Positions 30-9,326 of a stretch of 9,326 nucleotides of DNA are shown here, one piece after another. The DNA is from a bacterium (lineage in GTDB: Bacteria > Chloroflexota > Dormibacteria > UBA8260 > Bog-877). Location of the stretch: assembly GCA_021791455.1 (NCBI GenBank), contig JAJYWM010000020.1:1-9326 (forward strand), read 5' to 3'. The notes under the pieces were generated by a model. The model was not told the origin of the DNA. It ran no database searches and worked only from the letters and a program-made list of their open reading frames with translations. The position numbers and the translations under genes were made by a program. The stretch's first letter is position 1; each line of letters opens with the position of its first letter.

Positions 30-395
30 TTACGTTTCCCAGGACCGGTCACACAGGGTGAACGCAAGTACGGATGTTTGGGGGTACTTAGCCTCTACTA
101 ATTCTCCGTTGCGAATCCACCCGTGCCAAACGCCGATGACGTGAATGGAGGGGGCAACCGTGATTGCCGGCGGCGTCCCGGTCACCGTCCACATGGGGTC
201 CCCCGCCTCGTCCGCGCGTGACCGGGTGTGCCAGACAATCGGCCACTCGTGACCCGCCGCGTCCCTGTGCCGGCGTAGGACCACCGAGTAACCGGCGTCC
301 GAGGGGCCGTAGAGCTCGCTCGGCCACATCATCCCCGCCTCCCAGCCAGCCACGTCGTCGGGCGGCTTGTCCAGGAGCCGGAGCTTTATGCCCAC
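30..395 (-). CDS. Small protein resembling the DUF6527 phage family (121 aa)
   Basis: The core PMWTVTGTPPAITVAPSIHV (residues 67-86) followed by WHGWIRNGELVE (90-101) matches the general pattern of DUF6527-like phage proteins (W-x-x-x-G-x-x-PT-x-x-PS, then CH-x-x-x-x-x-G-x-[IL]). Here Trp replaces the usual Cys before His, and the N-terminal CxxC pair common in that family is missing, so the match is partial. The function of the family is unknown to me. I chose GTG 395 because GAGGTG (402-407) precedes it by 6 nt; GTG 404 (124 aa) is the alternative, with no site of its own. It lies a few bases downstream of the lysin candidate and is the last complete gene before the window edge. Confidence 0.66.
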   Translation of the reverse strand: MGIKLRLLDKPPDDVAGWEAGMMWPSELYGPSDAGYSVVLRRHRDAAGHEWPIVWHTRSRADEAGDPMWTVTGTPPAITVAPSIHVIGVWHGWIRNGELVEAKYPQTSVLAFTLCDRSWET

Positions 396-401
396 GCAAG
401 A

Positions 402-407
402 CACCTC
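402..407 (-). promoter_or_regulatory. Ribosome binding site deciding the GTG start at 395
   Basis: GAGGTG on the minus strand, six bases before GTG 395. It overlaps the TGA stop of the lysin candidate. Its GTG (404-402) is itself a possible start, but it would have no upstream site. Confidence 0.5.
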
Positions 408-1161
408 AGGGGATAACTAGCGAAGCCCCTCCGGGCAAGGTGTAACTCCCCGGGCCGAGAACCGTCGGAGACGGCGGAGGGTCCGGTGCCGGTGATGGAG
501 CCGGCACCGGACCAAAGCCCGGCCATTCGATCACTGAGAAGTCTACCCCAAACCCCGCCACCTTCACACCCCCCGCGAACTGCCAGCCCCGCTGGCCGTC
601 AACCGACCACAGGCCGTCTGCCAGGCCCTCTATGGAGGCCGCTGAGGCGGGCCAGGACACTCCCCCTGGATAGTAGGCGGCCCATACCCTCTCGGGGCGC
701 TGTGAGGCCGGGAGAGCCGATAGCGTCGAAAGACCGGACGGGGAGCCGTACTGGCAGGAGCGAACCTCATCGAGCTCGAACCAGGCCGCGGCCAGCTCCC
801 GGCATAGAGACTCGTTTGCGGTGAAGTCCCCCGCCTCCAGGTCGAAGACCACCGAGCCCGCAGCCGAAGTATCCGCGCCTATCTCCCCCAGCCAGTCCAT
901 CAGCAGCTGGTGCCCGACTCCAAGCGCATCCGGAGCGGGCAAAGGCTGGTGGTTGGGATCTAGGATCGGGACTACCTGCCAGCCGACCGAAAGGGCGATC
1001 TTCGCGATGCCCGTGGGGTCCGGGGCCCCCAGCACCTTTGGGGTGCCCCAGCCTGGGACGTAGAGCGCGATCACCGTAGCTCCCGTGGATGCCCTGATCG
1101 CCGCCAGGTCCGAGGCCGTGCTCGGGGGATAGAGGCAGTCGACCATCCTCTGGAGGCTCAT
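406..1161 (-). CDS. Glycoside-hydrolase-like lysin candidate (DUF1906/Rv2525c type)
   Basis: This 251-aa protein has a TIM-barrel-like domain at residues about 5-215, as in the DUF1906 glycoside-hydrolase-like family used in phage and actinobacterial cell-wall enzymes. Strand-end motifs are in order: MVDCLYPP (D8), TVIALYVPGWG (29-39), WQVVPILDPN (61-70, D68), SVVFDLEAGDF (103-113, D107 and E109 likely catalytic), RVWAAYYPGG (158-167) and GWQFAGG...GFGVDFSVI (192-211). A Pro linker (PVPAPSPAPDPPPSP, 218-232) leads to a short C-terminal segment (GPGSYTLPGGASLVIP) of unknown role, perhaps a binding tip. It has no signal peptide, as expected if release needs a holin. ATG 1161 overlaps the preceding stop as ATGA. 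It could instead be a virion-bound enzyme. Confidence 0.82.
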   Translation of the reverse strand: MSLQRMVDCLYPPSTASDLAAIRASTGATVIALYVPGWGTPKVLGAPDPTGIAKIALSVGWQVVPILDPNHQPLPAPDALGVGHQLLMDWLGEIGADTSAAGSVVFDLEAGDFTANESLCRELAAAWFELDEVRSCQYGSPSGLSTLSALPASQRPERVWAAYYPGGVSWPASAASIEGLADGLWSVDGQRGWQFAGGVKVAGFGVDFSVIEWPGFGPVPAPSPAPDPPPSPTVLGPGSYTLPGGASLVIP

Positions 1162-1454
1162 CGCAGGAAGTGTAGCACCAGGTCGAGCGCGGAGACGACC
1201 AGGCTGCACCCCGCGATCGCGACGACCGCAGTGGCCGCCCGCCTGGCGTCGCGCTTGTCCTTGCTGGTCAGCAGGCTCTCCCGCCAGGAGTCCTCCTGCT
1301 CCCTGGAGACGATCTTGAGCAGGGACTTGCGGTCGTCATCGGAGACCAGGGGCAAGTGCGAGGAAGACTCATAGCTCGGGTCGCGCAGCTGCACCAGCGG
1401 GATCTGGGGGCCGGGCCGGCCCCCGCGTCTAGCCTGAACCGTGTCTCTCTCCAT
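1158..1454 (-). CDS. Tail-anchored small protein, possible holin-like partner (98 aa)
   Basis: Residues 1-72 are hydrophilic. They start with a basic segment (ARRGGRPG), then a charged helix (DDDRKSLLKIVSREQEDSWRE, cited here as residues about 39-59) and a basic patch just before the membrane (KDKRDARRAA, 65-74). A single C-terminal helix at about 75-96 (VVAIAGCSLVVSALDLVL) ends the protein, so it should be tail-anchored with its bulk inside. This layout is seen in XhlA-type lysis helper proteins, and the gene directly overlaps the lysin candidate (ATGA, 1158-1161), which favours a lysis role. A structural membrane role is also possible. ATG 1454 overlaps the spike gene's stop by one base; longer readings of this frame run over the spike gene and are rejected. 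Confidence 0.66.
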   Translation of the reverse strand: MERDTVQARRGGRPGPQIPLVQLRDPSYESSSHLPLVSDDDRKSLLKIVSREQEDSWRESLLTSKDKRDARRAATAVVAIAGCSLVVSALDLVLHFLR

Positions 1455-2833
1455 CAGTATTGATCGTATGTCAGCGTGACCGCCTGCTGCCCGTCTGCCG
1501 TTCCCTGGGAGAGGTGGATATATATGCCGTCGCCCTCGGGCAGCTCGAAGCCCTCGAAGTCGAAGTCGATGTCCAGCGCGTTGTTGTCCGCCCACCAGGT
1601 GAAAAAGGCCGTGCCGGAGGCCGAACCGGACAGAAGCTGCCATGCGGCGCCGCTCGCGGATGTCTGGCAGGTGATCGACAGATGGCGGAGCCGGATCGAC
1701 TCGCCGCTGACGCCCGCGACGACTTCGGTGCCCGAGTTGGAGTAGCTGTTGGTGACGATGTTCTGTGGAGGCACCGGAGCCACGGGCACCGCGGCGCCCG
1801 AGGAAGCCTCCGTACCCTGCACGACCATGTCCACGGTCCGGGGCAGCGCGCTCCCGGCCTTGTAGGCGGCAACGCCCGCCACAAGCACATCCGGATAGTC
1901 GGATACGTCGTGGGTCGATTCCGCGAACTCGGAGGCGAAGGTGCCGAGCACCAGCTGGTCCACCCCGTCCGGAGTCCCATCTGTGGACATGAGCTGGGCC
2001 GCGTAGGAGCCACTCGAATACACCGGAGCCGACGGGGGGTTGTCGACCGTGACCACCGAGTTCCCCAGGTACTCGAAGACCTGGGCGATCGCGTAGGCCG
2101 CGCTGGGCAGGGTGTCCGAGGTGATCTCGACGATCAGGTCCTCAAAGTTCCCGTTGACCTGGCATGTCAACAGAGACCCGCTCGCTCCCAATAGACCGTT
2201 GATGTCGTCGGTGTCGATGTACTTCACACCGGTCGTCTCCCCGGTGACCGAGCACCCCAGCGTGGCCGCGCCCTGGGGAAAGACAAGCACCCCGAGCCCG
2301 GTCGCACTCGCGTCGGGAGTGACCGTCTGGGTCACCGTTATCGGAGCGGTGTCGGGGAGGTACATGGTCGTGCCCAGCTGCACCGGCGGGGTGTCGATCG
2401 AGACGTTTACCCCCTTCTGCCCCGACTCGATCGTGACGTCTCCTGAGTCCACGATGATCGTGCCCCCGGAGACCTGCGTGAGGCTGCCCGCGCTCGACTG
2501 CGGCGACTGCGGAGAGTTGCCCGCCTGGATCGTGCCCTGGAGGACCCCCTGGAGCGTCGAGCTAGCCGTTCCCCCGGTCACCGTGATCGCAACCGTCTGG
2601 CCGCTGCCGGCCGCGAAGGTCGGAGACTGGGTGCCCCCGTGCGCCACCACGACGCCGGAGACCGAGATCGCGAACAGCTGCCCATTAGGACACTCGCTCA
2701 CCACGGCATAGGCGAGCCAGTTGGTGCCCAGGTTCGGGGCGCCCAGGTTGGTGCTGCCGTTCCCCGAGGCATCCAGCTCGACCGAGAACGGCTGCCAGAG
2801 CGTCGTGGGAAGGTTCGCGGAGGATACCGTCAT
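1454..2833 (-). CDS. Large beta-rich spike or receptor-binding protein candidate (459 aa)
   Basis: The largest gene in the window. It has no membrane segment. Composition is rich in Gly, Ser, Thr and Val with almost no Lys or Arg, typical of extracellular beta-structured fibre or spike proteins. Three regions can be drawn: residues about 10-105, a beta domain (LWQPFSVEL, NWLAYAVVS, GQTVAITVTGG); 106-170, a repetitive Ser/Thr/Val region (GTIIVDSGDVTIESGQ) that may form a shaft; and 171-459, further beta domains ending in IRLRHLSITCQTSAS (380-394), DIDFDFEGFELPEGDGIYI (421-439) and VTLTYDQY. ATG 2833 has no clear ribosome site and lies 7 nt after the previous stop. The TGA overlaps the next ATG by one base. 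Host attachment is my inference. A tail protein of a tailed phage is the main alternative. Confidence 0.75.
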   Translation of the reverse strand: MTVSSANLPTTLWQPFSVELDASGNGSTNLGAPNLGTNWLAYAVVSECPNGQLFAISVSGVVVAHGGTQSPTFAAGSGQTVAITVTGGTASSTLQGVLQGTIQAGNSPQSPQSSAGSLTQVSGGTIIVDSGDVTIESGQKGVNVSIDTPPVQLGTTMYLPDTAPITVTQTVTPDASATGLGVLVFPQGAATLGCSVTGETTGVKYIDTDDINGLLGASGSLLTCQVNGNFEDLIVEITSDTLPSAAYAIAQVFEYLGNSVVTVDNPPSAPVYSSGSYAAQLMSTDGTPDGVDQLVLGTFASEFAESTHDVSDYPDVLVAGVAAYKAGSALPRTVDMVVQGTEASSGAAVPVAPVPPQNIVTNSYSNSGTEVVAGVSGESIRLRHLSITCQTSASGAAWQLLSGSASGTAFFTWWADNNALDIDFDFEGFELPEGDGIYIHLSQGTADGQQAVTLTYDQY

Positions 2834-2840
2834 GTGGGGC

Positions 2841-3035
2841 TCAGGAGGGAGTGGTTGGCACCGAGAGGTTGTATGCCCCGAGGCCCGCCACGATCAGAGC
2901 GGTCGAGAATGGGGTGCCCAGGCCGTGCATCGCGGGAACCGCGAATCCGCATATCCCGATGCCCACCGCGATCAGGCCGCCGACCGGCTTGCTCATCGCC
3001 TTGAGCGCAGAGCTCAGGCTCGACGTCGCGCTCAC
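2841..3035 (-). CDS. Two-helix small membrane protein (64 aa)
   Basis: The start is GTG 3035, overlapping the preceding TGA as GTGA. The product begins with a Ser-rich, weakly amphipathic region (SATSSLSSALKAMSK). Two hydrophobic segments follow at about 17-35 (VGGLIAVGIGICGFAV) and 42-57 (FSTALIVAGLGAYNL) joined by a short HGLG turn, making a helical hairpin. The end (SVPTTPS) is polar. This small hairpin resembles both virion-membrane peptides and class II holins; context does not decide. The stop is 7 nt before the start of the 459-aa spike candidate. No family recognised. Confidence 0.68.
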   Translation of the reverse strand: MSATSSLSSALKAMSKPVGGLIAVGIGICGFAVPAMHGLGTPFSTALIVAGLGAYNLSVPTTPS

Positions 3036-3205
3036 TCCTGCCCCCGAAAATCCCGCTCGGCCTCCTCCCTGAAGGTGTCCCTCGGAGCCTCCGCCTTTTC
3101 CGATAGCTTGGCCTCCAGATCCTCCACGCGATGGTAGAGCTCGGAGAGGTAGCGGCCTACCGCCCCGCCGATCTCATGCAACACCTCGTCACCCCTTGCC
3201 GCCAT
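3032..3205 (-). CDS. 57-aa charged helical protein with very strong ribosome site
   Basis: A short gene from ATG 3205 to TGA 3032-3034. The 57-aa product is highly charged and looks like one long helix with heptad-like spacing (HEIGGAVGRYLSELYHRVED, then LEAKLSEKAEAPRDTFREEA). It has no membrane segment and no cysteine, so a small coiled-coil oligomer is likely. Its AGGAGGTGAG site (3208-3217) is the best in the window with about 5 nt to the ATG, suggesting it is one of the more highly translated products. It overlaps the next gene's GTG by four bases (GTGA). Family unknown. The stop of the preceding gene lies within its ribosome site. Confidence 0.7.
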   Translation of the reverse strand: MAARGDEVLHEIGGAVGRYLSELYHRVEDLEAKLSEKAEAPRDTFREEAERDFRGQE

Positions 3206-3207
3206 GT

Positions 3208-3217
3208 CTCACCTCCT
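3208..3217 (-). promoter_or_regulatory. Near-perfect ribosome binding site of the 57-aa gene
   Basis: Reads AGGAGGTGAG on the minus strand, five bases before ATG 3205, and overlaps the TAG stop of the preceding gene. It is the strongest such site in the window and fixes the start of a gene only 57 codons long. Confidence 0.75.
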
Positions 3218-3458
3218 ATGGTCGCCACAGTCTGAAAACGTCCGCGAAGTGGACCAGGAGCAGCATGATCACGGCCCCGGCCACGAATGCCCACACCGCC
3301 CCGGCCCTCGGATGGTCGGTCAGCTCGCCCGCCACGACTGCGGAGATCGTCGTGTTGTTCGTGAACCAAATCCCGATCGCCTCCCCGATGCAGAGGCCCC
3401 CCAGGGCGAGCCCGCAGATCGCGAAGAAGGCCCCCGCGAGAATCCGGCCCAGATCCAT
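3216..3458 (-). CDS. Two-helix small membrane protein (80 aa)
   Basis: Two long hydrophobic segments are clear: residues about 5-32 (ILAGAFFAICGLALGGLCIG then EAIGIWF) and 54-73 (AVWAFVAGAVIMLLLVHF), joined by a polar loop (TNNTT... GELTDHPRAG). The C-terminus is short and basic (FRLWRP), so both ends probably face inside. ATG 3458 is 1 nt after the stop of the 168-aa gene (TGAGATG), consistent with coupled translation. The TAG stop (3216-3218) overlaps the AGGAGGTGA ribosome site of the next gene. A holin could have this shape, but the gene is far from the lysin candidate at 1161-406; a virion-membrane protein is equally possible. Confidence 0.7.
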   Translation of the reverse strand: MDLGRILAGAFFAICGLALGGLCIGEAIGIWFTNNTTISAVVAGELTDHPRAGAVWAFVAGAVIMLLLVHFADVFRLWRP

Positions 3459-3459
3459 C

Positions 3460-3966
3460 TCAGAGAGTCCACCTGGCAGCGACCGGATCGTTTGCGATCT
3501 CCTCCATTGCGAGCCCGCCCAGCTGGTAGGAGTCGCCCGCAGTCCCGCCCGTCACCTTGCAGATGATCCGCTGGGGATACGTCAGCACGACCATGCGCGA
3601 GGAGTAGAACTTGGCTATAGGAAGAGAGGCGGCCTGGTCGAAGCAGAACGCCGAGATCAGGGCATTGGAAGACTTGCTCGACGACAGGAAGAGGAAGGCA
3701 GAGCCCGCCGTCGTGGCCGTCGGATCGGTGCCCCCCAGGAACACCCTGCGCAGCACCCACGCCTTTCCCAGGGTGGGGCCGCCGCAGTCCATGATCAGGT
3801 CACCGCTGGATGGGAACTCATCGGAGGCCTGGATCTGGGCCGCGATAGGGATCAGGCGCTCCAGGCGGTCCTCGCGGTCCTGGCCCCGCTTGATCTGCTC
3901 GGTGGATGCATCCAGAGCGGCGCAGAGCTTCAGCTCCAGATCGCCGCCCACTGCCAACTCAGCCAT
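3460..3966 (-). CDS. Beta-rich structural protein with N-terminal helix (168 aa)
   Basis: Residues about 8-45 form a charged helix, possibly a coiled coil for oligomerisation (EQIKRGQDREDRLERLI). The rest looks like a beta-sandwich: GDLIMDCGGPTLGKAWVLRR (55-74), FLFLSSSKS, SAFCFDQAASLPIAKFYSS (105-123) and VVLTYPQRIICKVTG. The pattern of a GP-x-G-x-x-W-x-x-R-R strand and an LP...YSS turn recalls small virion or tail-associated proteins of actinobacteriophages; I know of no assigned function. I chose ATG 3966, with GGAGG at 3972-3976 and a 5-nt spacer, over the TTG at 3978, which would overlap the lysozyme gene. The ATG is 1 nt past that gene's stop. A vertex or capsid-surface role is inference. 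Confidence 0.72.
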   Translation of the reverse strand: MAELAVGGDLELKLCAALDASTEQIKRGQDREDRLERLIPIAAQIQASDEFPSSGDLIMDCGGPTLGKAWVLRRVFLGGTDPTATTAGSAFLFLSSSKSSNALISAFCFDQAASLPIAKFYSSRMVVLTYPQRIICKVTGGTAGDSYQLGGLAMEEIANDPVAARWTL

Positions 3967-3967
3967 C

Positions 3968-5107
3968 TCAGCCTCCAAACACCGCTTTGAACTTGTCCGG
4001 CTGCTCCATTCTCGCGCGGCGCAGCTTCTGGCGGGTGCGGATCGCCTCGGTGCCGGGGTACTGCGCCGGCCGCCGGGCCTCCGCCCGTTCCCGGCTCAGC
4101 TTCTCCCGGTAGCTGCGAGCGGCCGACTGGTACGTCTCCCGATCTCCCGCATCCCGGGCCCTCGATTCGCTCACCCGGGCCTGGGCCCGGGCCTTGCGAA
4201 GCCGCGCCCGATCCAGCGCCGCCCGATGCTCCTGGCGCCGCTTGGATTCGGCCTCAGAGGCCGCCTGGCGCTCTCCCTCGGCCCTGCGGGCACTGGAGGC
4301 CGCACGACGGCCCCGGACCACCTGAGCGGGCTTCTGGGCGGCGCCCACGACCTGTCCCAGCCCCGCGGCCCCGAAGGCGCGGCTAGCCGTCTTGCCCGCC
4401 TTGGTCTCAGTCAGCGTCGCGATCACGATGAGGCCGAATCCGATCAGGACCACCAGGGCGCCGCCCGTCATCAGCAGGCCTCCTTGGATCTTCGCCACCT
4501 GGCCGTTGGTGAGGATGCAGAAACCGATTCCGTTGATCGCGCACCCGTTCGGGTCCGAGCTCGAGCTCGAGCCGCTCGCCCCCGCGGTCGAGCCGGTGCC
4601 CGATCCACCGGTCTTCGTCTCATAGGAGAGATAACTCTGACTGCCCAGGATCGAGGCGACGCCCGCTCCATTGGTGCCCCAGGGCGAGGCCGTGAGGGCC
4701 GCCGGCAGACTCTGTGAGGCGTTGCCAGAGGCGAAGGCGCTCCGGATCCCAGCATATGCCGGCAGCTTCAGGGTGGCTACCGTCGCCTGGATCCCCTGGC
4801 CCCAGGAGGTGTACTTCTTGACGCCCTGGCTGTTCGTGCTTACCGCCCCGGAGGCGTCCATGGTCGTGTTCAGCGGATTGTAGGAGTCGGGGTTCTCCCA
4901 GTTGCCCCCCTCCTGCTCCTCCCATGCGACCATCGCATTGATGTTCGATTGCGTCTGGGGCCAGCCCATCGCCGACAGGATGGATGTCGCGAACCAGAGC
5001 GGAGTCGCCGCGGCCGCGGTCGCGGGAGCGGACCCCTGGCCGGAGGAACCGCTGCCCGTGGAGGCCCCGGCCGAGGATCCCGTCGCGCCCGACGCTCCGG
5101 TCAGCAT
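3968..5107 (-). CDS. Membrane-anchored lysozyme-like (transglycosylase-type) virion protein with Arg-rich tail
   Basis: This 379-aa protein has four parts. Residues 1-35 are a Gly/Ser/Ala linker. Residues about 37-155 resemble the lysozyme-like/lytic transglycosylase fold found in actinobacterial phage proteins: AWEEQEGGNW (61-70) with E66 as the likely catalytic acid, NPLNTT (77-82), then YTSWGQGIQATVATL (99-113). After a Ser linker comes one membrane helix at about 206-231 (flanked by C189, C197). Residues 235-379 are an Arg/Ala/Glu helical region, strongly basic. By the positive-inside rule the basic tail lies inside and the enzyme outside. PRD1 P7 is a membrane-associated virion transglycosylase, a useful parallel for local peptidoglycan opening during genome entry. 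ATG 5107 is the only start after an in-frame stop. It has no ribosome site, so translation probably depends on the nuclease gene upstream. Confidence 0.8.
   Translation of the reverse strand: MLTGASGATGSSAGASTGSGSSGQGSAPATAAAATPLWFATSILSAMGWPQTQSNINAMVAWEEQEGGNWENPDSYNPLNTTMDASGAVSTNSQGVKKYTSWGQGIQATVATLKLPAYAGIRSAFASGNASQSLPAALTASPWGTNGAGVASILGSQSYLSYETKTGGSGTGSTAGASGSSSSSDPNGCAINGIGFCILTNGQVAKIQGGLLMTGGALVVLIGFGLIVIATLTETKAGKTASRAFGAAGLGQVVGAAQKPAQVVRGRRAASSARRAEGERQAASEAESKRRQEHRAALDRARLRKARAQARVSESRARDAGDRETYQSAARSYREKLSRERAEARRPAQYPGTEAIRTRQKLRRARMEQPDKFKAVFGG
4556..4571. repeat. Short CGAGCT tandem repeat in the Ser linker
   Basis: Two and a half copies of a palindromic CGAGCT hexamer within the lysozyme-like fusion gene. 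They encode part of the five-Ser linker (residues about 180-184) just before the membrane helix. It is a low-complexity coding repeat that may vary in copy number; no regulatory role is apparent. Confidence 0.5.
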
Positions 5108-5658
5108 CAGGAAACTTCAGACAGAACTTCGAAGAGCCCTGGGCCGGCATCGCTCAATGCCTGGCGCTTCCGCCGGCGGCTTAGAGCATTCTGGCACTCG
5201 CGGCATTCGCGCAGCGTCCTGCCCGCATTTGGCCCTCTCAGAGGGTGGCGAACTATGAGGTTGGGTCCAGACAAGGGGTGCCCTCTCTTGCACTCCTTCT
5301 TGTCACGATTGCGATTGATCGCCGGGCGGCGGGCTTCCGCCTCCTTCCGGCACTTTATGATCTGCTCTCGTTTGACGTCTCCGAGATACGGCCACAGGAG
5401 CGAGCAAACTTGCAGAACGTCGGCCTCTTTGCTACAGCTCCAGACGATCTGCGGTGACCACTTTCCGGGGAGCTGGCTCTTCTTGTTTCTAACGTGTCCG
5501 ACGTTGCCGACGGCTGCCTGGAACCTCCAGATCGATCTGAAGTCGACCTGCGCGACGGTCATTCTGGGATACGCTCCCCGGCTGTTCCTTTCCAACGAAG
5601 TGCAGCCTTCGCCGTCCCAGAACCCGGCCGCCCAGGCGATTTCCGTTTGCTTGCTCAT
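5107..5658 (-). CDS. LAGLIDADG-type homing endonuclease with C-terminal Cys/His cluster
   Basis: This 183-aa DNA endonuclease is a selfish homing enzyme. Residues 7-18 (IAWAAGFWDGEG) match the single LAGLIDADG helix ending in the catalytic acidic residue(s) (D15, E17). One copy of the motif implies action as a dimer. A basic beta-rich core follows. The C-terminus holds CKRGHPLSG (C123, H127) and RECREC (C152, C155), a pattern seen in zinc-binding tails of phage homing nucleases, then a run of Arg/Lys. I chose ATG 5658 because it overlaps the preceding stop as ATGA; an ATG at 5679 in frame would overlap the membrane gene further. The TGA overlaps the ATG of the lysozyme-like gene by one base. 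Hand counts give about 57% GC in 5341-5520 against about 73% in 4141-4200, suggesting acquisition. Confidence 0.87.
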   Translation of the reverse strand: MSKQTEIAWAAGFWDGEGCTSLERNSRGAYPRMTVAQVDFRSIWRFQAAVGNVGHVRNKKSQLPGKWSPQIVWSCSKEADVLQVCSLLWPYLGDVKREQIIKCRKEAEARRPAINRNRDKKECKRGHPLSGPNLIVRHPLRGPNAGRTLRECRECQNALSRRRKRQALSDAGPGLFEVLSEVS

Positions 5659-5969
5659 GAGGGATGGGAGGCACTCCATTCATACCCGGCCAGGAGGACA
5701 GCGGTCACCGCGGCCGTCACCCAGAAGGGAAGGGCGCTGTCTGCCGCCAGGGATGCCCCGACCCCCACGAGGAGAGCCAGGCCCCCGCCGATCACCTCAC
5801 CCTGCCGTAGGCGCTTCAGGTTGCCCTCACGGTGCTCCTGAAAGAATGGGCTCGCGATGGTCATATAGGAGGGACACGCCCCCGAGAGGAAGTTGGCCGC
5901 GTCGCCTGCGGCCAGAATCGCTATGCCGACGGTTCCCGCCGTGAGTGCGGCCTTTCTCTTCGGGTCCAC
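5655..5969 (-). CDS. Small multi-pass membrane protein (104 aa)
   Basis: The GTG start at 5969 has a weak AGGA site about 7 nt upstream and overlaps the previous TAG. The basic N-terminus (DPKRK) is followed by a hydrophobic segment at about 8-27, then a hydrophilic loop (FFQEHREGNLKRLRQGE, 42-58) and two close hydrophobic segments at about 59-76 and 82-96. One cysteine (C32) lies just past the first helix. There is no recognisable motif. The stop overlaps the start of the LAGLIDADG nuclease gene as ATGA (5655-5658). Before the nuclease gene arrived, this gene was probably directly upstream of the lysozyme-like fusion at 5107. Likely a virion or host-membrane protein. Confidence 0.68.
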   Translation of the reverse strand: MDPKRKAALTAGTVGIAILAAGDAANFLSGACPSYMTIASPFFQEHREGNLKRLRQGEVIGGGLALLVGVGASLAADSALPFWVTAAVTAVLLAGYEWSASHPS

Positions 5970-6175
5970 TAGCGGATCCTACGAGAGGACAGCCCCCGCC
6001 CCACCTGCTGGTTCTCGTATTGAAGTTGTGCGGTGAGTTGAGGGCTGATCCTCTCAGGAGAAGGATAGGGCAGGTTCAGGCTGGGAGAGCCCCCGAGGTC
6101 CATCGCCCTAGAGGGGTCGGCGGGGTAGGCCTGGGGCTGCTCCAGGACGCGGTGCGGAGCGATCGACATGATCAT
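5969..6175 (-). CDS. 68-aa soluble protein of unknown function
   Basis: A short hydrophilic protein, Pro-rich in its first two thirds (LEQPQAYPADPSRA, NLPYPSPERI) with a Gln-rich stretch (QLTAQLQYENQQ, residues 47-57) and a basic end (SSRRIR). It has no membrane segment and no cysteine. ATG 6175 overlaps the preceding stop as ATGA; ATG 6169, two codons in, is an alternative. The TAG stop (5969-5971) overlaps the next gene's GTG by one base. I recognise no family. It may bridge other virion proteins, as its composition is similar to that of the 167-aa Pro-rich protein two genes upstream, but there is no direct evidence. Confidence 0.6.
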   Translation of the reverse strand: MIMSIAPHRVLEQPQAYPADPSRAMDLGGSPSLNLPYPSPERISPQLTAQLQYENQQVGRGLSSRRIR

Positions 6176-6870
6176 GCCGCGGCCACCGCCGGCGCCGTGG
6201 TCGAGCTTGCCGCCGTGCTCGCGTTGCCAGCCGTGTTAGCGGGCGGAGCGGGGTTGCCTCCCGTGCCCGAGGGGATCTGCACATACAGCGGGGTGCCCGG
6301 GGCAAGGTTCGGGCTCCCGATCGGGGCGGGCAGGAAGACTCCGGGGAGCGGCTCATAGTAGATCTGCTCTCCCGCGGCCTGTAGAGACCCGTACTCGCTG
6401 CCATCGACCCACTCGTAGGTGTTGCCGTTGGCGTCGGTGATCGGGCTCTGATATCCAGGGCCGCCGTTGGCCTCCGCCTGCGCGGCCGATGCGCTTGAGG
6501 GCGGCTGCCACCAGCCGGAGCCGGACTGCACCTGGAAGGGCAGGGTCGTCGTGGTCGGGGAGCTCGACGTGCTCGAAGACTGCCCGGTCGTGGAGCTGCT
6601 CGAGCCCCCGTACACGGTCGGCGACGCACCGCCATATCCGCCCACGCCGAATCCCGACGTGGGAGTCGTCGATGCGGTCGTGCCCGTGGTCGAAGAGGTC
6701 GAAGATGAGCTCTGACTCGCTTCGTACTTCGTATACAGCCAGTACGCGAGCACCCCTCCGCCTATGACCGCGGCCCAGCCCCAGACGGGAAGGCCGGCCA
6801 TCTTCTTCTGGAAAAAGGACTGCCCCCCGGAGATCTTGGCGGGAGCGGGCGCCGGCGCGGTGTCGGCCAT
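6172..6870 (-). CDS. Membrane-anchored Ser/Thr-rich stalk protein (232 aa)
   Basis: The family is unknown. A short N-terminal region (MADTAPAPAPAK) with K22-K23 precedes one membrane helix at about 28-47 (PVWGWAAVIGGGVLAYWLY). Residues 50-110 are an extreme Ser/Thr/Gly stalk. A folded-looking region at about 111-205 contains an acidic/aromatic patch (NTYEWVDGSEYGS, 150-162), and the end is Ala/Ser/Thr/Pro-rich. The lysines suggest an N-inside, C-outside topology with the distal domain displayed at the end of the stalk. I chose ATG 6870 over the adjacent ATG 6873 because GGGAGG (6877-6882) is then 6 nt away and the ATG overlaps the previous TGA by one base. The stop overlaps the next start as ATGA. 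Possible role: a virion-membrane component or vertex-linked stalk. Confidence 0.7.
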   Translation of the reverse strand: MADTAPAPAPAKISGGQSFFQKKMAGLPVWGWAAVIGGGVLAYWLYTKYEASQSSSSTSSTTGTTASTTPTSGFGVGGYGGASPTVYGGSSSSTTGQSSSTSSSPTTTTLPFQVQSGSGWWQPPSSASAAQAEANGGPGYQSPITDANGNTYEWVDGSEYGSLQAAGEQIYYEPLPGVFLPAPIGSPNLAPGTPLYVQIPSGTGGNPAPPANTAGNASTAASSTTAPAVAAA

Positions 6871-7373
6871 CATGTGCCTCCCGGCCCGAAGGTGGGCCAG
6901 TTGGATTGCGGGTTCGGCCAGTTGGTCACGCGCCGCCCTCCGATGCGAGCCGGACGCTGCGCGACCGGGTTGCTCGACCACGCCTGCATCGATGGCACGG
7001 GCAGAGGATGGTCAGAGAACCGCCGCGTCTTCTGGGCGTAGCCAGGGGCCATCTTGGAAGCCCACAGCCTAGGCCGCCAGTAGCGGTTGCGGCACTGAAC
7101 CTTGGTCAGCAGCGGCGCGTTGGGAACCACCGCAAGAGGCATGACGTTCGGAGTCCCCACCTTGAAGGTGCCCAGGGTGTTCATGGGCACCATCTTTCCC
7201 CCCGAGGCCGCCTCTGGGGTCAGAGGCCGGATGACGGGCGCCTGGGTCGGCGAAGTGGGGACTTCCACCGGACCCCAGGCGGCCCGCCACTGGGAAGGGA
7301 AGAGCGAAGGTCCACGGGTAAGCGGGGGCGGTGTGTTCTGCACCATCCCCTGCGTGCCCGTCATGATACCCAT
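6870..7373 (-). CDS. Pro-rich basic soluble protein (167 aa)
   Basis: I do not recognise this protein. It has no membrane segment. It is rich in Pro, Arg, Trp and Asn: PPPLTRGPSLFP near residue 15, a central hydrophobic patch (MPLAVVPNAPLL, 78-89), then a basic region (CRNRYWRPRLW, 94-104) and Asn/Trp/Pro repeats at the end (NWPNPQSNWPTFGPGG, 151-166). Extended Pro-rich chains of this kind often act as scaffolding or glue between capsid and membrane layers, but that role is inference. ATG 7373 lies 3 nt past the preceding stop and has only a weak ribosome site; ATG 7364 is an alternative. The stop overlaps the next gene's ATG as TGATG and its final codons contain that gene's GGGAGG. Confidence 0.68.
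   Translation of the reverse strand: MGIMTGTQGMVQNTPPPLTRGPSLFPSQWRAAWGPVEVPTSPTQAPVIRPLTPEAASGGKMVPMNTLGTFKVGTPNVMPLAVVPNAPLLTKVQCRNRYWRPRLWASKMAPGYAQKTRRFSDHPLPVPSMQAWSSNPVAQRPARIGGRRVTNWPNPQSNWPTFGPGGT
6877..6882 (-). promoter_or_regulatory. Ribosome binding site deciding between two adjacent ATGs
   Basis: GGGAGG on the minus strand. It is 3 nt from ATG 6873 and 6 nt from ATG 6870, so the second ATG is the more likely start of the 232-aa stalk protein. The site lies within the final codons of the 167-aa gene. Confidence 0.65.
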
Positions 7374-7376
7374 CTG

Positions 7377-7556
7377 TCAGCCGCTCGTATAGCGGTAGGT
7401 GGGATTGTTGCCCAGGAGGCCCTGCTCCGAGGGCACCGTCAGAGCGGTCAGGCCGTTGAAGGCCGTGGCCGTCCCGGAGGGGTGTGTGAGAAAGTCGGCG
7501 ATGATCAAACCCATGACCACCAATCCGACCACGCCGACGAGGGTCGTGGGTTTCAA
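7377..7556 (-). CDS. 59-aa single-pass membrane protein with TTG start
   Basis: The gene starts at TTG 7556 with a strong GGAGGT site (7563-7568) and a 6-nt spacer, and ends at TGA 7377-7379. The TTG overlaps the stop of the HNH nuclease gene as TTGA. The product begins KPTTLVGVVGLVVMGLIIAD after the start residue, giving one membrane helix at residues about 5-20. A short exposed region ends NPTYRYTSG. No family is recognised. A good ribosome site, exact fit between its neighbours and a helix like those of the surrounding genes support it. Position 7542 offers a GTG in frame, but the ribosome-site spacing favours TTG. Confidence 0.66.
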   Translation of the reverse strand: MKPTTLVGVVGLVVMGLIIADFLTHPSGTATAFNGLTALTVPSEQGLLGNNPTYRYTSG

Positions 7557-8158
7557 GACGCTACCTCCAACTGTATGGCCCGCGCCGATCCAAGGTACCG
7601 GATGGCGCTCGCCATCCTCTCTTCATCGTCGCCGAAAGATCCTAGCCCCACATTACACAAGGTGCAAAGAGCGCCGCGGACGGCGCCGCTAGCATGGTCG
7701 TGATCAATAACGAAGGCTCGCCTTTTACTGAAATCGAATGCCTCACCGCATATCGCGCAGCGGTTCTCCTGGGCCGCCAGGAGCAACGCCAAACGCTCGG
7801 CGGTCAGCCCGTATAGAGCCTTGTATCTATAGCGGCGGTAGGGATGAGTGGCCCTCGCACGAGCGTTCAGGAGTTCGCGGCAGTTCTGGCAAGAGGTGAG
7901 CCCCGTCACAGCTGGAGCTGCGCAATGGACACAGAGCCCCTCGGCCTTGCGCTGCTCCCGTATCCTCTTGGATGCGGTGCGCGAAGACGCGATCTCCTGC
8001 TTGCGATTCGCATAGTAATAGGCTTTGCGCTGTTCGCGAAGACGCTCGGCATTCGCGGCGTAATGCTTCCGCTTGCGCTGCTTAACAAGCTCGGGGTTGC
8101 GGGCCTGATATTCCTTCTGGGCCTGGAGGCTGCGAGCCCGCTTCTCTTCCGGGGTCAT
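7553..8158 (-). CDS. Endonuclease VII-type HNH homing nuclease
   Basis: This is a 201-aa DNA endonuclease of the recombination endonuclease VII (His-Me finger/HNH) family, typical of free-standing phage homing nucleases. Residues 15-60 carry basic, Tyr/Asn-spaced repeats (NPELVKQRKR, NAERLREQRK), a common DNA-binding lead-in. A zinc-ribbon-like CxxC...CxxC follows at C76, C79, C90 and C93. The catalytic core has CAIC (134-137), the VIDHDH motif (150-155, with D152 and H153 matching the active Asp-His), and the second zinc pair plus Asn in CTLCN (165-169). All key residues are present, so it should be active. The ATG at 8158 overlaps the previous stop (ATGA) and lacks a ribosome site. GC content is visibly lower than in its neighbours, consistent with later insertion. 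Confidence 0.92.
   Translation of the reverse strand: MTPEEKRARSLQAQKEYQARNPELVKQRKRKHYAANAERLREQRKAYYYANRKQEIASSRTASKRIREQRKAEGLCVHCAAPAVTGLTSCQNCRELLNARARATHPYRRYRYKALYGLTAERLALLLAAQENRCAICGEAFDFSKRRAFVIDHDHASGAVRGALCTLCNVGLGSFGDDEERMASAIRYLGSARAIQLEVAS
7563..7568 (-). promoter_or_regulatory. Ribosome binding site deciding a TTG start
   Basis: GGAGGT on the minus strand, six bases before TTG 7556. It lies inside the last codons of the HNH nuclease gene and is the main support for the 59-aa membrane gene, letting it be translated without relying on the nuclease. Confidence 0.7.
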
Positions 8159-8427
8159 GCCGCAGCCGCCTGGGTTGTGTTTGAAGTGGTTGCCGGCAGG
8201 CCGCTGCCTGGGAGCAGCTTCGGGTTCTGCAGCAACTGCGCGATCACGAATCCCCAAGCGGCGAGCGATGCGGGCGTCGGCGCAACCTCTCCCAGCAGAG
8301 CCAGGAGGGCCATGATCACCGAGTCTCCGACGAGCACCCCCGGCACGGGCAGGCCCGTACCCTCGCGCACGCTGTTAACCGTGCTGAGGGTCATCGAGAA
8401 GATCCAGGCGAGAGCGACACCCTTCAC
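8155..8427 (-). CDS. Small multi-pass membrane protein (90 aa)
   Basis: The start chosen is GTG at 8427, which overlaps the preceding stop as GTGA; longer readings of this frame would run back over the 91-aa gene. The product has up to three hydrophobic stretches: residues about 4-18 (VALAWIFSMTLSTV, possibly amphipathic), 30-48 (GVLVGDSVIMALLALLGEV) and 52-67 (PASLAAWGFVIAQLLQ). A Thr/Asn/Ala-rich tail ends the protein. No charged catalytic motif is visible. The size and two to three helices would also fit a holin, but there is no adjacent lysin gene here, so a structural membrane protein is at least as likely. Its TGA overlaps the ATG of the HNH nuclease gene (ATGA, 8155-8158). Confidence 0.68.
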   Translation of the reverse strand: MKGVALAWIFSMTLSTVNSVREGTGLPVPGVLVGDSVIMALLALLGEVAPTPASLAAWGFVIAQLLQNPKLLPGSGLPATTSNTTQAAAA

Positions 8428-8699
8428 GGCTGCCCCGCCCCGGGCGGAGCCGCGTTGGCGACGCTGCGCTCCCCGCCTGGTTGTGTGACGTACTTGCTCC
8501 CCGAGGGCAGGCCGTTGGCCTGCGTCCCGGGGTTCGCCGCGTTGTACTGACTCACCGGCGCGGTCGCACCCCCGCACGGCTGGAACTTCCCGGGCCACAT
8601 CACGTCTATGAATGACTGCGAGCAGCCGTTATAGACCTGATAACCCCAGAAGCCCAGGCCGTAGCCCACCACCGATACGAGGATGCCGACTGCGAGCAT
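8424..8699 (-). CDS. Small N-terminally anchored protein with two cysteines (91 aa)
   Basis: The N-terminal residues 1-22 are hydrophobic (MLAVGILVSVVGYGLGFWGY), either an uncleaved signal anchor or a signal peptide. They are followed by a short domain with two cysteines (C26 and C42, around YNGCSQSF and FQPCGG) that could form a disulfide outside the cytoplasm. A disordered Pro/Gly/Asn-rich tail runs to residue 91. The start ATG at 8699 has no good ribosome site of its own but lies 3 nt past the stop of the 34-aa gene, so coupled translation is likely. The TGA stop overlaps the next gene's GTG (GTGA, 8424-8427). Family unknown; likely membrane or virion-associated. Confidence 0.7.
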   Translation of the reverse strand: MLAVGILVSVVGYGLGFWGYQVYNGCSQSFIDVMWPGKFQPCGGATAPVSQYNAANPGTQANGLPSGSKYVTQPGGERSVANAAPPGAGQP

Positions 8700-8702
8700 A
8701 GG

Positions 8703-8807
8703 TCAGCTCGACTTTGCGCCAGGGATTGGGCTCACGAAGTGGTGGATGGCGTACACAACCACGACGCCGGCGATGACACCGACCCAGAAGTCTCCAGACT
8801 TGAGCAT
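8703..8807 (-). CDS. 34-aa single-pass membrane mini-protein
   Basis: This is a very short gene. ATG at 8807 is preceded by AAGGAG (8814-8819) with an ideal 6-nt spacer, and translation ends at TGA 8703-8705. The 34-aa product begins MLKSGDFW, has one hydrophobic segment at residues about 7-24 (WVGVIAGVVVVYAI) and a short polar C-terminus ending in KSS. It fills exactly the space between the 77-aa gene (stop overlaps its ribosome site) and the 91-aa gene (ATG at 8699, a 3-nt gap), which strongly supports a real gene despite its size. No homologue is recognised. Virion-membrane peptide or holin-like peptide are the two plausible roles; I favour the former from context. Confidence 0.68.
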   Translation of the reverse strand: MLKSGDFWVGVIAGVVVVYAIHHFVSPIPGAKSS

Positions 8808-8813
8808 TTGAAT

Positions 8814-8819
8814 CTCCTT
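8814..8819 (-). promoter_or_regulatory. Ribosome binding site of the 34-aa gene
   Basis: AAGGAG on the minus strand with a 6-nt spacer to ATG 8807. It overlaps the TAA stop of the 77-aa gene, linking the two genes, and is key evidence that the 34-aa reading frame is real. Confidence 0.68.
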
Positions 8820-9051
8820 AAGCGGGAAGTGAATACCAGAGGGCGACTAGCGCCACGACCGAGCCGACTCCGATCCAGAAGGCCATGCCCGCCGGGTGAG
8901 TCGGTGCCAATGGGTTGCGACCAGAGCTCTGCCCGGAGGCCATCACGCCTCCGGGGCTGAGCGCGGACCCGTTCGATGCACCCGAGCCAGATGAGCCGAC
9001 CCGGGCCGACGCCGCGCCGAAGGCGCCACCGCCGATACCGGTTGCGAACAT
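8818..9051 (-). CDS. Small Gly/Ser-rich membrane protein with C-terminal anchor (77 aa)
   Basis: The family is unknown to me. Residues 1-50 are low-complexity Gly/Ser/Ala (motifs such as GIGGGAFGAA and GSSGSGASNGS). Residues about 55-74 form one hydrophobic helix (MAFWIGVGSVVALVALWYSL), leaving only LPA after it. This is a tail-anchored single-pass layout with no cleavable signal. The ATG at 9051 is preceded by GGGAGG at 9061-9066 with a 9-nt spacer. The TAA stop (8818-8820) sits inside the AAGGAG ribosome site of the next gene. The gene belongs to a run of four small membrane proteins (9051-8155), which fits a set of virion-membrane peptides. Confidence 0.72.
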   Translation of the reverse strand: MFATGIGGGAFGAASARVGSSGSGASNGSALSPGGVMASGQSSGRNPLAPTHPAGMAFWIGVGSVVALVALWYSLPA

Positions 9052-9065
9052 TGCTCAGTGCCTCC

Positions 9066-9323
9066 CTACATCTCCAACAGGCCGGTCAGCATTGCCCGGG
9101 ACGGCACGAACTGGCCGGCGAGGATGGTCAGGGTTGCGGGCGCGTTGCTGATCGTGCCCCAGGTTCCCTGCACCTGCACCGATGTCCCGGGGTTGGTGCT
9201 GAGGTAGCCCTCGCCCGTGTCCAGAAGCCCGAGGCTCACCTGGTTGAGCGAGGTCTTGCGGGTGAAGACCAGGACGCCGGTCTCGCGGAGGTACCCGCTC
9301 GCCAGCTGGAACTGGTTCGCCAT
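9066..9323 (-). CDS. Small beta-rich structural protein candidate (85 aa)
   Basis: I do not recognise the family. The 85-aa product has no membrane segment and no cysteine. It alternates hydrophobic and polar residues with many Gly, Thr and Ser (for example SVQVQGTWGTIS around residues 48-59), which suggests a compact beta-sandwich as in small virion proteins. The ATG at 9323 lies three bases from the window edge, so its ribosome site cannot be seen and a start further upstream in the same frame cannot be excluded. The stop TAG (9066-9068) abuts the GGGAGG ribosome site of the next gene. As the most upstream gene seen in an operon of membrane and virion-type proteins, a minor capsid or vertex role is plausible but unproven. 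Confidence 0.7.
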   Translation of the reverse strand: MANQFQLASGYLRETGVLVFTRKTSLNQVSLGLLDTGEGYLSTNPGTSVQVQGTWGTISNAPATLTILAGQFVPSRAMLTGLLEM

Positions 9324-9326
9324 GTC

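Follow-up and report, generated by a model that had tools for sequence, protein, structure and literature searches.

Organization of the Operon

The stretch of DNA considered here (the window: all 9,326 nucleotides of contig JAJYWM010000020.1, assembly GCA_021791455.1) is occupied by 21 minus-strand genes, which cover 9247 of 9326 bases and include 20 complete open reading frames (ORFs) and part of a major capsid gene (Table 1). Neighboring genes overlap at 11 of the 20 junctions, and the remaining nine junctions have gaps of 1–14 bases. In a KD scan a clear hydrophobic segment was found in 10 of 21 products, and one more was borderline, while in the comparison set of other-frame ORFs of the window such a segment was present in 5 of 63. 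These data confirmed the dense operon rich in small membrane proteins which was described in an earlier note on this DNA, made from the sequence alone.

The family libraries were of little help: Pfam, PHROGs, and NCBIfam named only two nucleases and a DUF6527 protein among the window ORFs scanned (20 in the PHROG scan and 10 in the NCBIfam scan). Megablast against phage records gave no relative of the window, tblastn against phage records gave no match for the 168-amino-acid (aa) protein, the endolysin candidate, the spike candidate, or the DUF6527 protein, and the IMG/VR single-protein scans with two window proteins gave no relatives.

Capsid Protein and Packaging ATPase of Relatives

The key relative was obtained with the 379-aa lysozyme-like protein of the window, which together with 11 of its 42 relatives was aligned as A1, and the A1 profile was scanned over one genome per GTDB species. 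Among the 10 loci found, L049, on the 13,442-base contig JAJYXT010000003.1 of the metagenome-assembled genome (MAG) FK3.bin63, matched beyond the enzyme domain. In ORF comparison with composition correction off, this same contig (numbered there as L062) matched 11 of 21 window genes at E<1e-3, namely, the capsid end and the genes at 8818, 8703, 8424, 8155, 7377, 6870, 5655, 3968, 3460, and 2841; 10 of these 11 matches follow the window order, and the homologue of 2841 is in another place and on the other strand. Two further L062 rows at E 0.003 (6172 and 406) were taken as wrong-frame ORFs and were left uncounted.

The window capsid fragment shows 60% identity over 88 columns to residues 294–381 of the 381-aa L062 capsid protein (3e-28) and 52% identity to the capsid protein of Streptomyces plasmid pSCO2. 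According to a fold model, the full-length protein of the relative has the PRD1 fold and is a single double jelly-roll protein. Its nearest named homologs are those of actinobacterial Tectiviridae (25–27% identity; tblastn E 1e-6), the same being true for the FtsK/HerA-type ATPase (25–30% identity), and hhalign against the epsilontectiviruses Toil and P19 gave 99.5% for the capsid and 99.9% for the ATPase. The earlier note had advised looking upstream for such an ATPase and a double (or paired single) jelly-roll capsid protein, and in the syntenic contig the ATPase and a double jelly-roll capsid protein are located directly upstream of the same block, the ATPase gene adjoining the capsid gene. 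The accompanying statement that neither of them is in the window was right for the ATPase, but not for the capsid gene, since its 3′ end is within the window.

According to these data the window is, with a probability of about 93%, the 3′ portion of an operon for virion and lysis proteins in a tailless double-stranded DNA phage, which belongs to the PRD1 (double jelly-roll) lineage and stands near, but outside, the known genera of actinobacterial tectiviruses; the virus is a deeply divergent member of the already known tectivirus-like kind. The earlier suggestion of a tailless virus with an internal membrane is thereby supported through the capsid and ATPase homology of the relatives, while the membrane itself, the life cycle, and the host are inferred.

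Plasmids Carrying the Lineage

When the capsid protein was compared with plasmids by tblastn, 2 of 72,556 records matched. The first is pSCO2 of Streptomyces collinus Tu 365 (NC_021986.1; L063, 1–19314) with 55% identity over 93% of the query, where 31 of 34 listed genes are annotated as “hypothetical protein” and 3 are named. It resembles L062 in the capsid (57%, 1e-143) and the ATPase (42%, 8e-63), and it shares with the window the capsid and nine further genes in the window order, two of them by weak matches (E 0.002–0.003). Unlike the window, it has the homologue of 3460, the last of the ten, beyond an opposite-strand block, contains a GH25 gene, and has no nuclease between the two membrane genes. 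The ends of pSCO2 match each other in one 54-column stretch (81%); the record says circular, while according to PMC8743542 the plasmid is linear and possesses telomeres of the SCP1 type as well as tac/tpc genes. The second match is the 17.7-kb linear plasmid of Micromonospora sp. NBC_01405 (L064), which contains a more distant capsid homologue at 13582–14730 (30% over 54% of the query) and a ParA gene.

The filing of the clearest named relative as a linear plasmid, together with the location of its ATPase and partner gene on the strand opposite to the capsid operon, favors another explanation, in which the window represents left-over virion genes in a linear plasmid or a chromosome and the capsid operon is carried without infectious particles. 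We consider this unlikely, since there is no interruption in the 20 complete ORFs and the capsid part of the window, which are tightly coupled, since 1455 matches were obtained in the capsid search, and since replication in the form of a linear plasmid is also known for betatectiviruses, which can pass from it to lytic growth (PMC6950372). Thus pSCO2 would fit a temperate tectivirus-like life cycle. In the open literature, which excludes subscription papers, no study treating the S. collinus plasmid as tectivirus-like was found; the word “collinus” does not occur in the main texts of Yutin et al. 2018, Caruso 2019, and an actinobacterial prophage survey, whose supplements, lying outside this search, may list members. 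Because a cultivable streptomycete carries a relative filed as a “plasmid,” the virus nature of this relative is directly testable.

Comparison with Known Tectiviruses

Epsilontectivirus (Rhodococcus phage Toil and phage P19) shares with the lineage the order of ATPase, small gene, capsid, small genes, entry lysozyme, and receptor-binding protein, followed by an endolysin or DUF1906 gene; it differs in the capsid, whose low identity is given above, and among the 12 gene families compared with Toil/P19 the 104-aa membrane protein is the only one besides capsid and ATPase to exceed 90% in hhalign (91.8% to the Toil/P19 family of Toil 12705–12992). Deltatectivirus (WheeHeim, Forthebois) and the proposed Zetatectivirus (MuffinTheCat) possess related capsid and ATPase and a similar two-block genome plan, but they are placed apart from the lineage by a separate 100/100 capsid clade at about 3 changes per site. 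With PRD1 and PR772 (Alphatectivirus), which have Gram-negative hosts, the sequence identity is 12–16%.

In the capsid tree of 58 rows, 49 lineage rows (the window, L049, pSCO2, Kitasatospora, and 45 randomly chosen rows of the listed matches) formed a 100/100 clade apart from nine tectivirus-like rows representing five named phages, one plasmid, and three IMG/VR contigs, with Alpha-, Beta-, and Gammatectivirus absent from the tree. The capsid therefore does not group inside Delta-, Epsilon-, or the proposed Zetatectivirus in this set, whose rows were selected by similarity to L049, so that intermediate groups may be missing. The window fragment, with 22% of columns filled, is nearest to P0044/P0045 (67% over 83 columns with P0045; support 84/64).

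Yutin et al. 2018 (PMC5894146) described a Toil group, whose members are elements of actinobacteria and have small, divergent polymerases. A 409-aa ORF of L049 (299–1528, minus strand) shows DNA-polymerase-B-like motifs by eye without a family match and is perhaps one of the miniaturised polymerases mentioned there; in L062 numbering, polymerase-like motifs are seen, by eye only, in the ORF 11386–12615.

Size, Visibility, and Host of the Lineage

Of the 7996 candidates scored when a protein collection from public genomes and metagenomes was searched with the capsid protein, 1455 reached E<=1e-3. The best 120 of these 1455 are 53–61% identical (the query's own record aside) and lie on contigs of up to ~22 kb, while the others may belong to the lineage only in part; a protein of Kitasatospora sp. 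NPDC057198 is among the listed matches. In contrast, two scans of IMG/VR (2.9 million contigs) with capsid alignments (14 and 63 pattern stretches) gave 0 relatives, where two exact short-peptide patterns are required for each match and the absence is strong, not absolute, while a control scan with the Toil capsid gave 8. It appears that a major virus catalogue missed this large lineage, and the number of such tailless phages in it is probably underestimated.

The GTDB searches were poor in relatives: 1 of 400 genomes in the phylum of genome G001, namely, G001 itself, 0 of 396 in the phylum of G403, and 0 of 6 genomes in a further search, at most four first-look candidates being scored per listed genome in the larger ones. 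Among the 42 relatives of the 379-aa product in the protein search, two bear the label of a Candidatus Dormibacteraeota MAG. Other relatives occur on actinobacterial plasmids, and the host of the window virus may be an actinobacterium, as considered possible in the earlier note, or another bacterium. The broadest proposal has about an even chance in our estimation: a family-level lineage of tailless membrane phages which persist in Terrabacteria (streptomycetes, perhaps Dormibacteraeota) in the form of linear plasmids, are common in metagenomes and invisible to the searched catalogue, exchange lysozyme heads on a conserved anchor, and host homing endonucleases targeting the junctions of the virion operon.

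Evidence against the Tectivirus-Like Interpretation

Several facts weigh against assignment of the window to a tectivirus-like phage. The window lacks the ATPase, the polymerase, and the genome ends, and neither particle nor lipid has been observed. Tectiviridae have a protein-primed family B DNA polymerase and a linear genome of ~15 kb bounded by inverted terminal repeats of ~100 bp. No inverted terminal repeat was found on the L062 contig, its polymerase candidate has no match in the Pfam or hhalign comparison, and the polymerase-like pSCO2 region 1895–3832 is below the cutoff (PF03175, 4.4e-4; hhalign 36.9%). The capsid protein has no Pfam match and no PDB relative by sequence or profile, and its best PHROG row is a non-significant “tail fiber” (E 0.14); its identity therefore depends on the fold model, tblastn at 1e-6, and profile comparison. 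The spike and endolysin roles are assigned by position and neither protein matches phage records, while the spike-slot protein of L049 and one pSCO2 protein match “tail spike,” “minor tail,” or “pre-neck appendage” profiles of PHROG, which we read as shared surface-binding modules.

The latter matches would also be expected if the window encoded the lysis and baseplate or tail functions of a usual tailed phage, the small membrane proteins being accessory to them, and the lysozyme domain (window 4652–5020) indeed recurs, with 36–54% identity, in ORFs, often large ones, of 48 IMG/VR contigs (4.5–98 kb). This explanation is nevertheless very improbable: the double jelly-roll capsid and the packaging ATPase share one gene block, the capsid fragment of which is in the window; the relatives are small (the 13.4-kb contig and the 19.3-kb plasmid); and no PHROG match to HK97-type capsid, terminase, portal, or tape measure was found in 20 window, 8 L049, and 10 pSCO2 ORFs, the phrog_2666 matches representing the packaging ATPase. 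Capsid-less chromosomal context, named in the earlier note along with terminase, portal, and tape-measure genes as contrary evidence, was likewise not seen in the ORFs scanned. That note had also left the choice between a PRD1/tectivirus and a P23-77 relative, of which the former held; a virus of the P23-77/Helvetiavirae type, in which the capsid is built of two single jelly-roll proteins, suggested by the many small membrane proteins and a weak ATPase match to Thermus phage phiKo (5e-4), is hardly credible with the single 381-aa double jelly-roll protein of the relative.

Proposed Mechanism

In the PRD1 model (PMC11768872), the capsid protein surrounds an internal membrane, which turns into a delivery tube, and linear DNA is packaged through a vertex by the ATPase. 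For the tectivirus-like phage proposed here, capsid trimers would build the shell over a host-derived membrane carrying many small single-span proteins, and the upstream FtsK/HerA-type ATPase would pump in the linear genome. The 459-aa protein may bind the host surface, after which the membrane-anchored lysozyme would open the cell wall at entry and the membrane would form the delivery tube. Lysis would be performed by the 251-aa protein, for which one of the small membrane proteins would serve as holin, relatives might persist as linear plasmids, and two homing-endonuclease-like genes would have invaded gene junctions of the operon.

Individual Products of the Operon

Table 1: Genes of the window and the data on which their description is based (KD, value of the hydrophobic segment; percentages, identity with E-value in brackets).
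Product	Coordinates	Strand	Basis
Major capsid gene, 3′ end	9066..9326	-	C-terminal 86 aa; open at window edge
77-aa protein, C-terminal membrane segment	8818..9051	-	KD 1.95
34-aa single-span membrane peptide	8703..8807	-	KD 2.01
91-aa protein, N-terminal membrane segment	8424..8699	-	38% L062 (7e-14); 30% pSCO2 (0.002, weak)
90-aa membrane protein	8155..8427	-	44% pSCO2 (3e-12); 31% L062 (2e-10)
Free-standing endonuclease VII/HNH gene	7553..8158	-	PF02945 8.2e-22 on longer ORF 7553-8257; phrog_2914 1e-30
59-aa single-span membrane protein	7377..7556	-	52% pSCO2 (2e-17); 44% L062 (8e-9)
167-aa soluble virion-protein candidate	6870..7373	-	31% L062 (6e-13); 25% pSCO2 (5e-5)
232-aa protein, N-terminal anchor, then Ser/Thr-rich stalk	6172..6870	-	Anchor borderline, KD 1.49
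68-aa ORF	5969..6175	-	Open reading frame
104-aa membrane protein	5655..5969	-	KD 1.75; 55% L062 (9e-35)
Free-standing HNH/LAGLIDADG-like endonuclease	5107..5679	-	phrog_5046 2.9e-12
379-aa membrane-anchored lysozyme-like entry-enzyme candidate	3968..5107	-	Enzyme ~39-146, span 211-229, Arg-rich tail
168-aa soluble protein, vertex/penton candidate	3460..3966	-	39% L062 (7e-36); 26% pSCO2 (2e-11)
80-aa two-span membrane protein	3216..3458	-	KD 2.36 + 2.35
57-aa soluble protein	3032..3205	-	Helical-looking by eye
64-aa membrane protein	2841..3035	-	KD 2.05
459-aa soluble receptor-binding/spike candidate	1454..2833	-	Inferred from position
98-aa protein, C-terminal membrane span, holin candidate	1158..1454	-	KD 2.36
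251-aa endolysin candidate	406..1161	-	Glycoside-hydrolase-like by eye on motifs only
124-aa DUF6527 protein, operon end	30..404	-	PF20137 27.7 bits, cutoff 23.6

On the PRD1 model the serial tiny single-span proteins behind the capsid gene would be virion-membrane proteins, and their conserved block offers candidates for the membrane and tube proteins of the lineage. The 77-aa protein is 42% identical to L062:5661-5876 and 45% identical over 40 columns to pSCO2, and the 34-aa peptide has tiny ORFs in the same slot in L062 (4e-5) and, weakly, in pSCO2 (0.003). The 232-aa protein matches pSCO2 (30% over 66 columns, 7e-5) and WheeHeim 11390–12106 (27%, 4e-7), the latter with a caution for low complexity. 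For the 68-aa ORF a 70-aa ORF is present in the same L049 slot, with no L062 match at E<=0.05. The 64-aa gene is 56% identical to L062:10263-10508, located there in the other block on the opposite strand, and thus moves independently.

In the 379-aa protein the catalytic candidate Glu66 is invariant in alignments A1 and A4, and the lysozyme-like assignment of the domain is supported; the domain gave no significant Foldseek match and no PDB match by profile, its VIA comparison took in 7 chains, and tblastn of the lysozyme against plasmids gave no relatives. The domain also occurs in ORFs on MAG contigs, most of which carry an Actinomycetota label. The C-terminal anchor is retained in pSCO2 (31%, 5e-10, residues 173–315) while the enzyme head is unmatched, which suggests that the enzyme was swapped on a fixed membrane anchor.

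The role of the 168-aa protein as penton is a guess; the protein itself is present on 8 contigs, the longest of which has 13,444 bases. The 459-aa protein gave no family above the cutoff in the window library scans; the corresponding slot of L049, behind the 168-aa homologue, contains a pectate-lyase-like protein (PF12708, 1.4e-9), which fits a slot exchanged with the host. The 251-aa protein had no family match in the library scans, and the post-spike position of its gene resembles that of the P19 DUF1906 gene. The DUF6527 protein (30–404) had no PADLOC match. Between the ATPase and capsid genes of L049 there is a small ORF (5233–5691), HExxH metalloprotease-like by eye, for which neither Pfam nor PHROG gave a match; in Toil this place is taken by a tiny gene.

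Both nucleases look like free-standing homing endonucleases which entered gene junctions without breaking the operon, the homing itself being presumed. The membrane genes flanking the endonuclease VII gene are directly adjacent in L062 and pSCO2, and the 104-aa and lysozyme genes, separated by the HNH gene in the window, are 3 bases apart in L062. The guanine-cytosine content is 0.61 in the endonuclease VII gene and 0.60 in the HNH gene, compared with 0.67 in the rest of the window.
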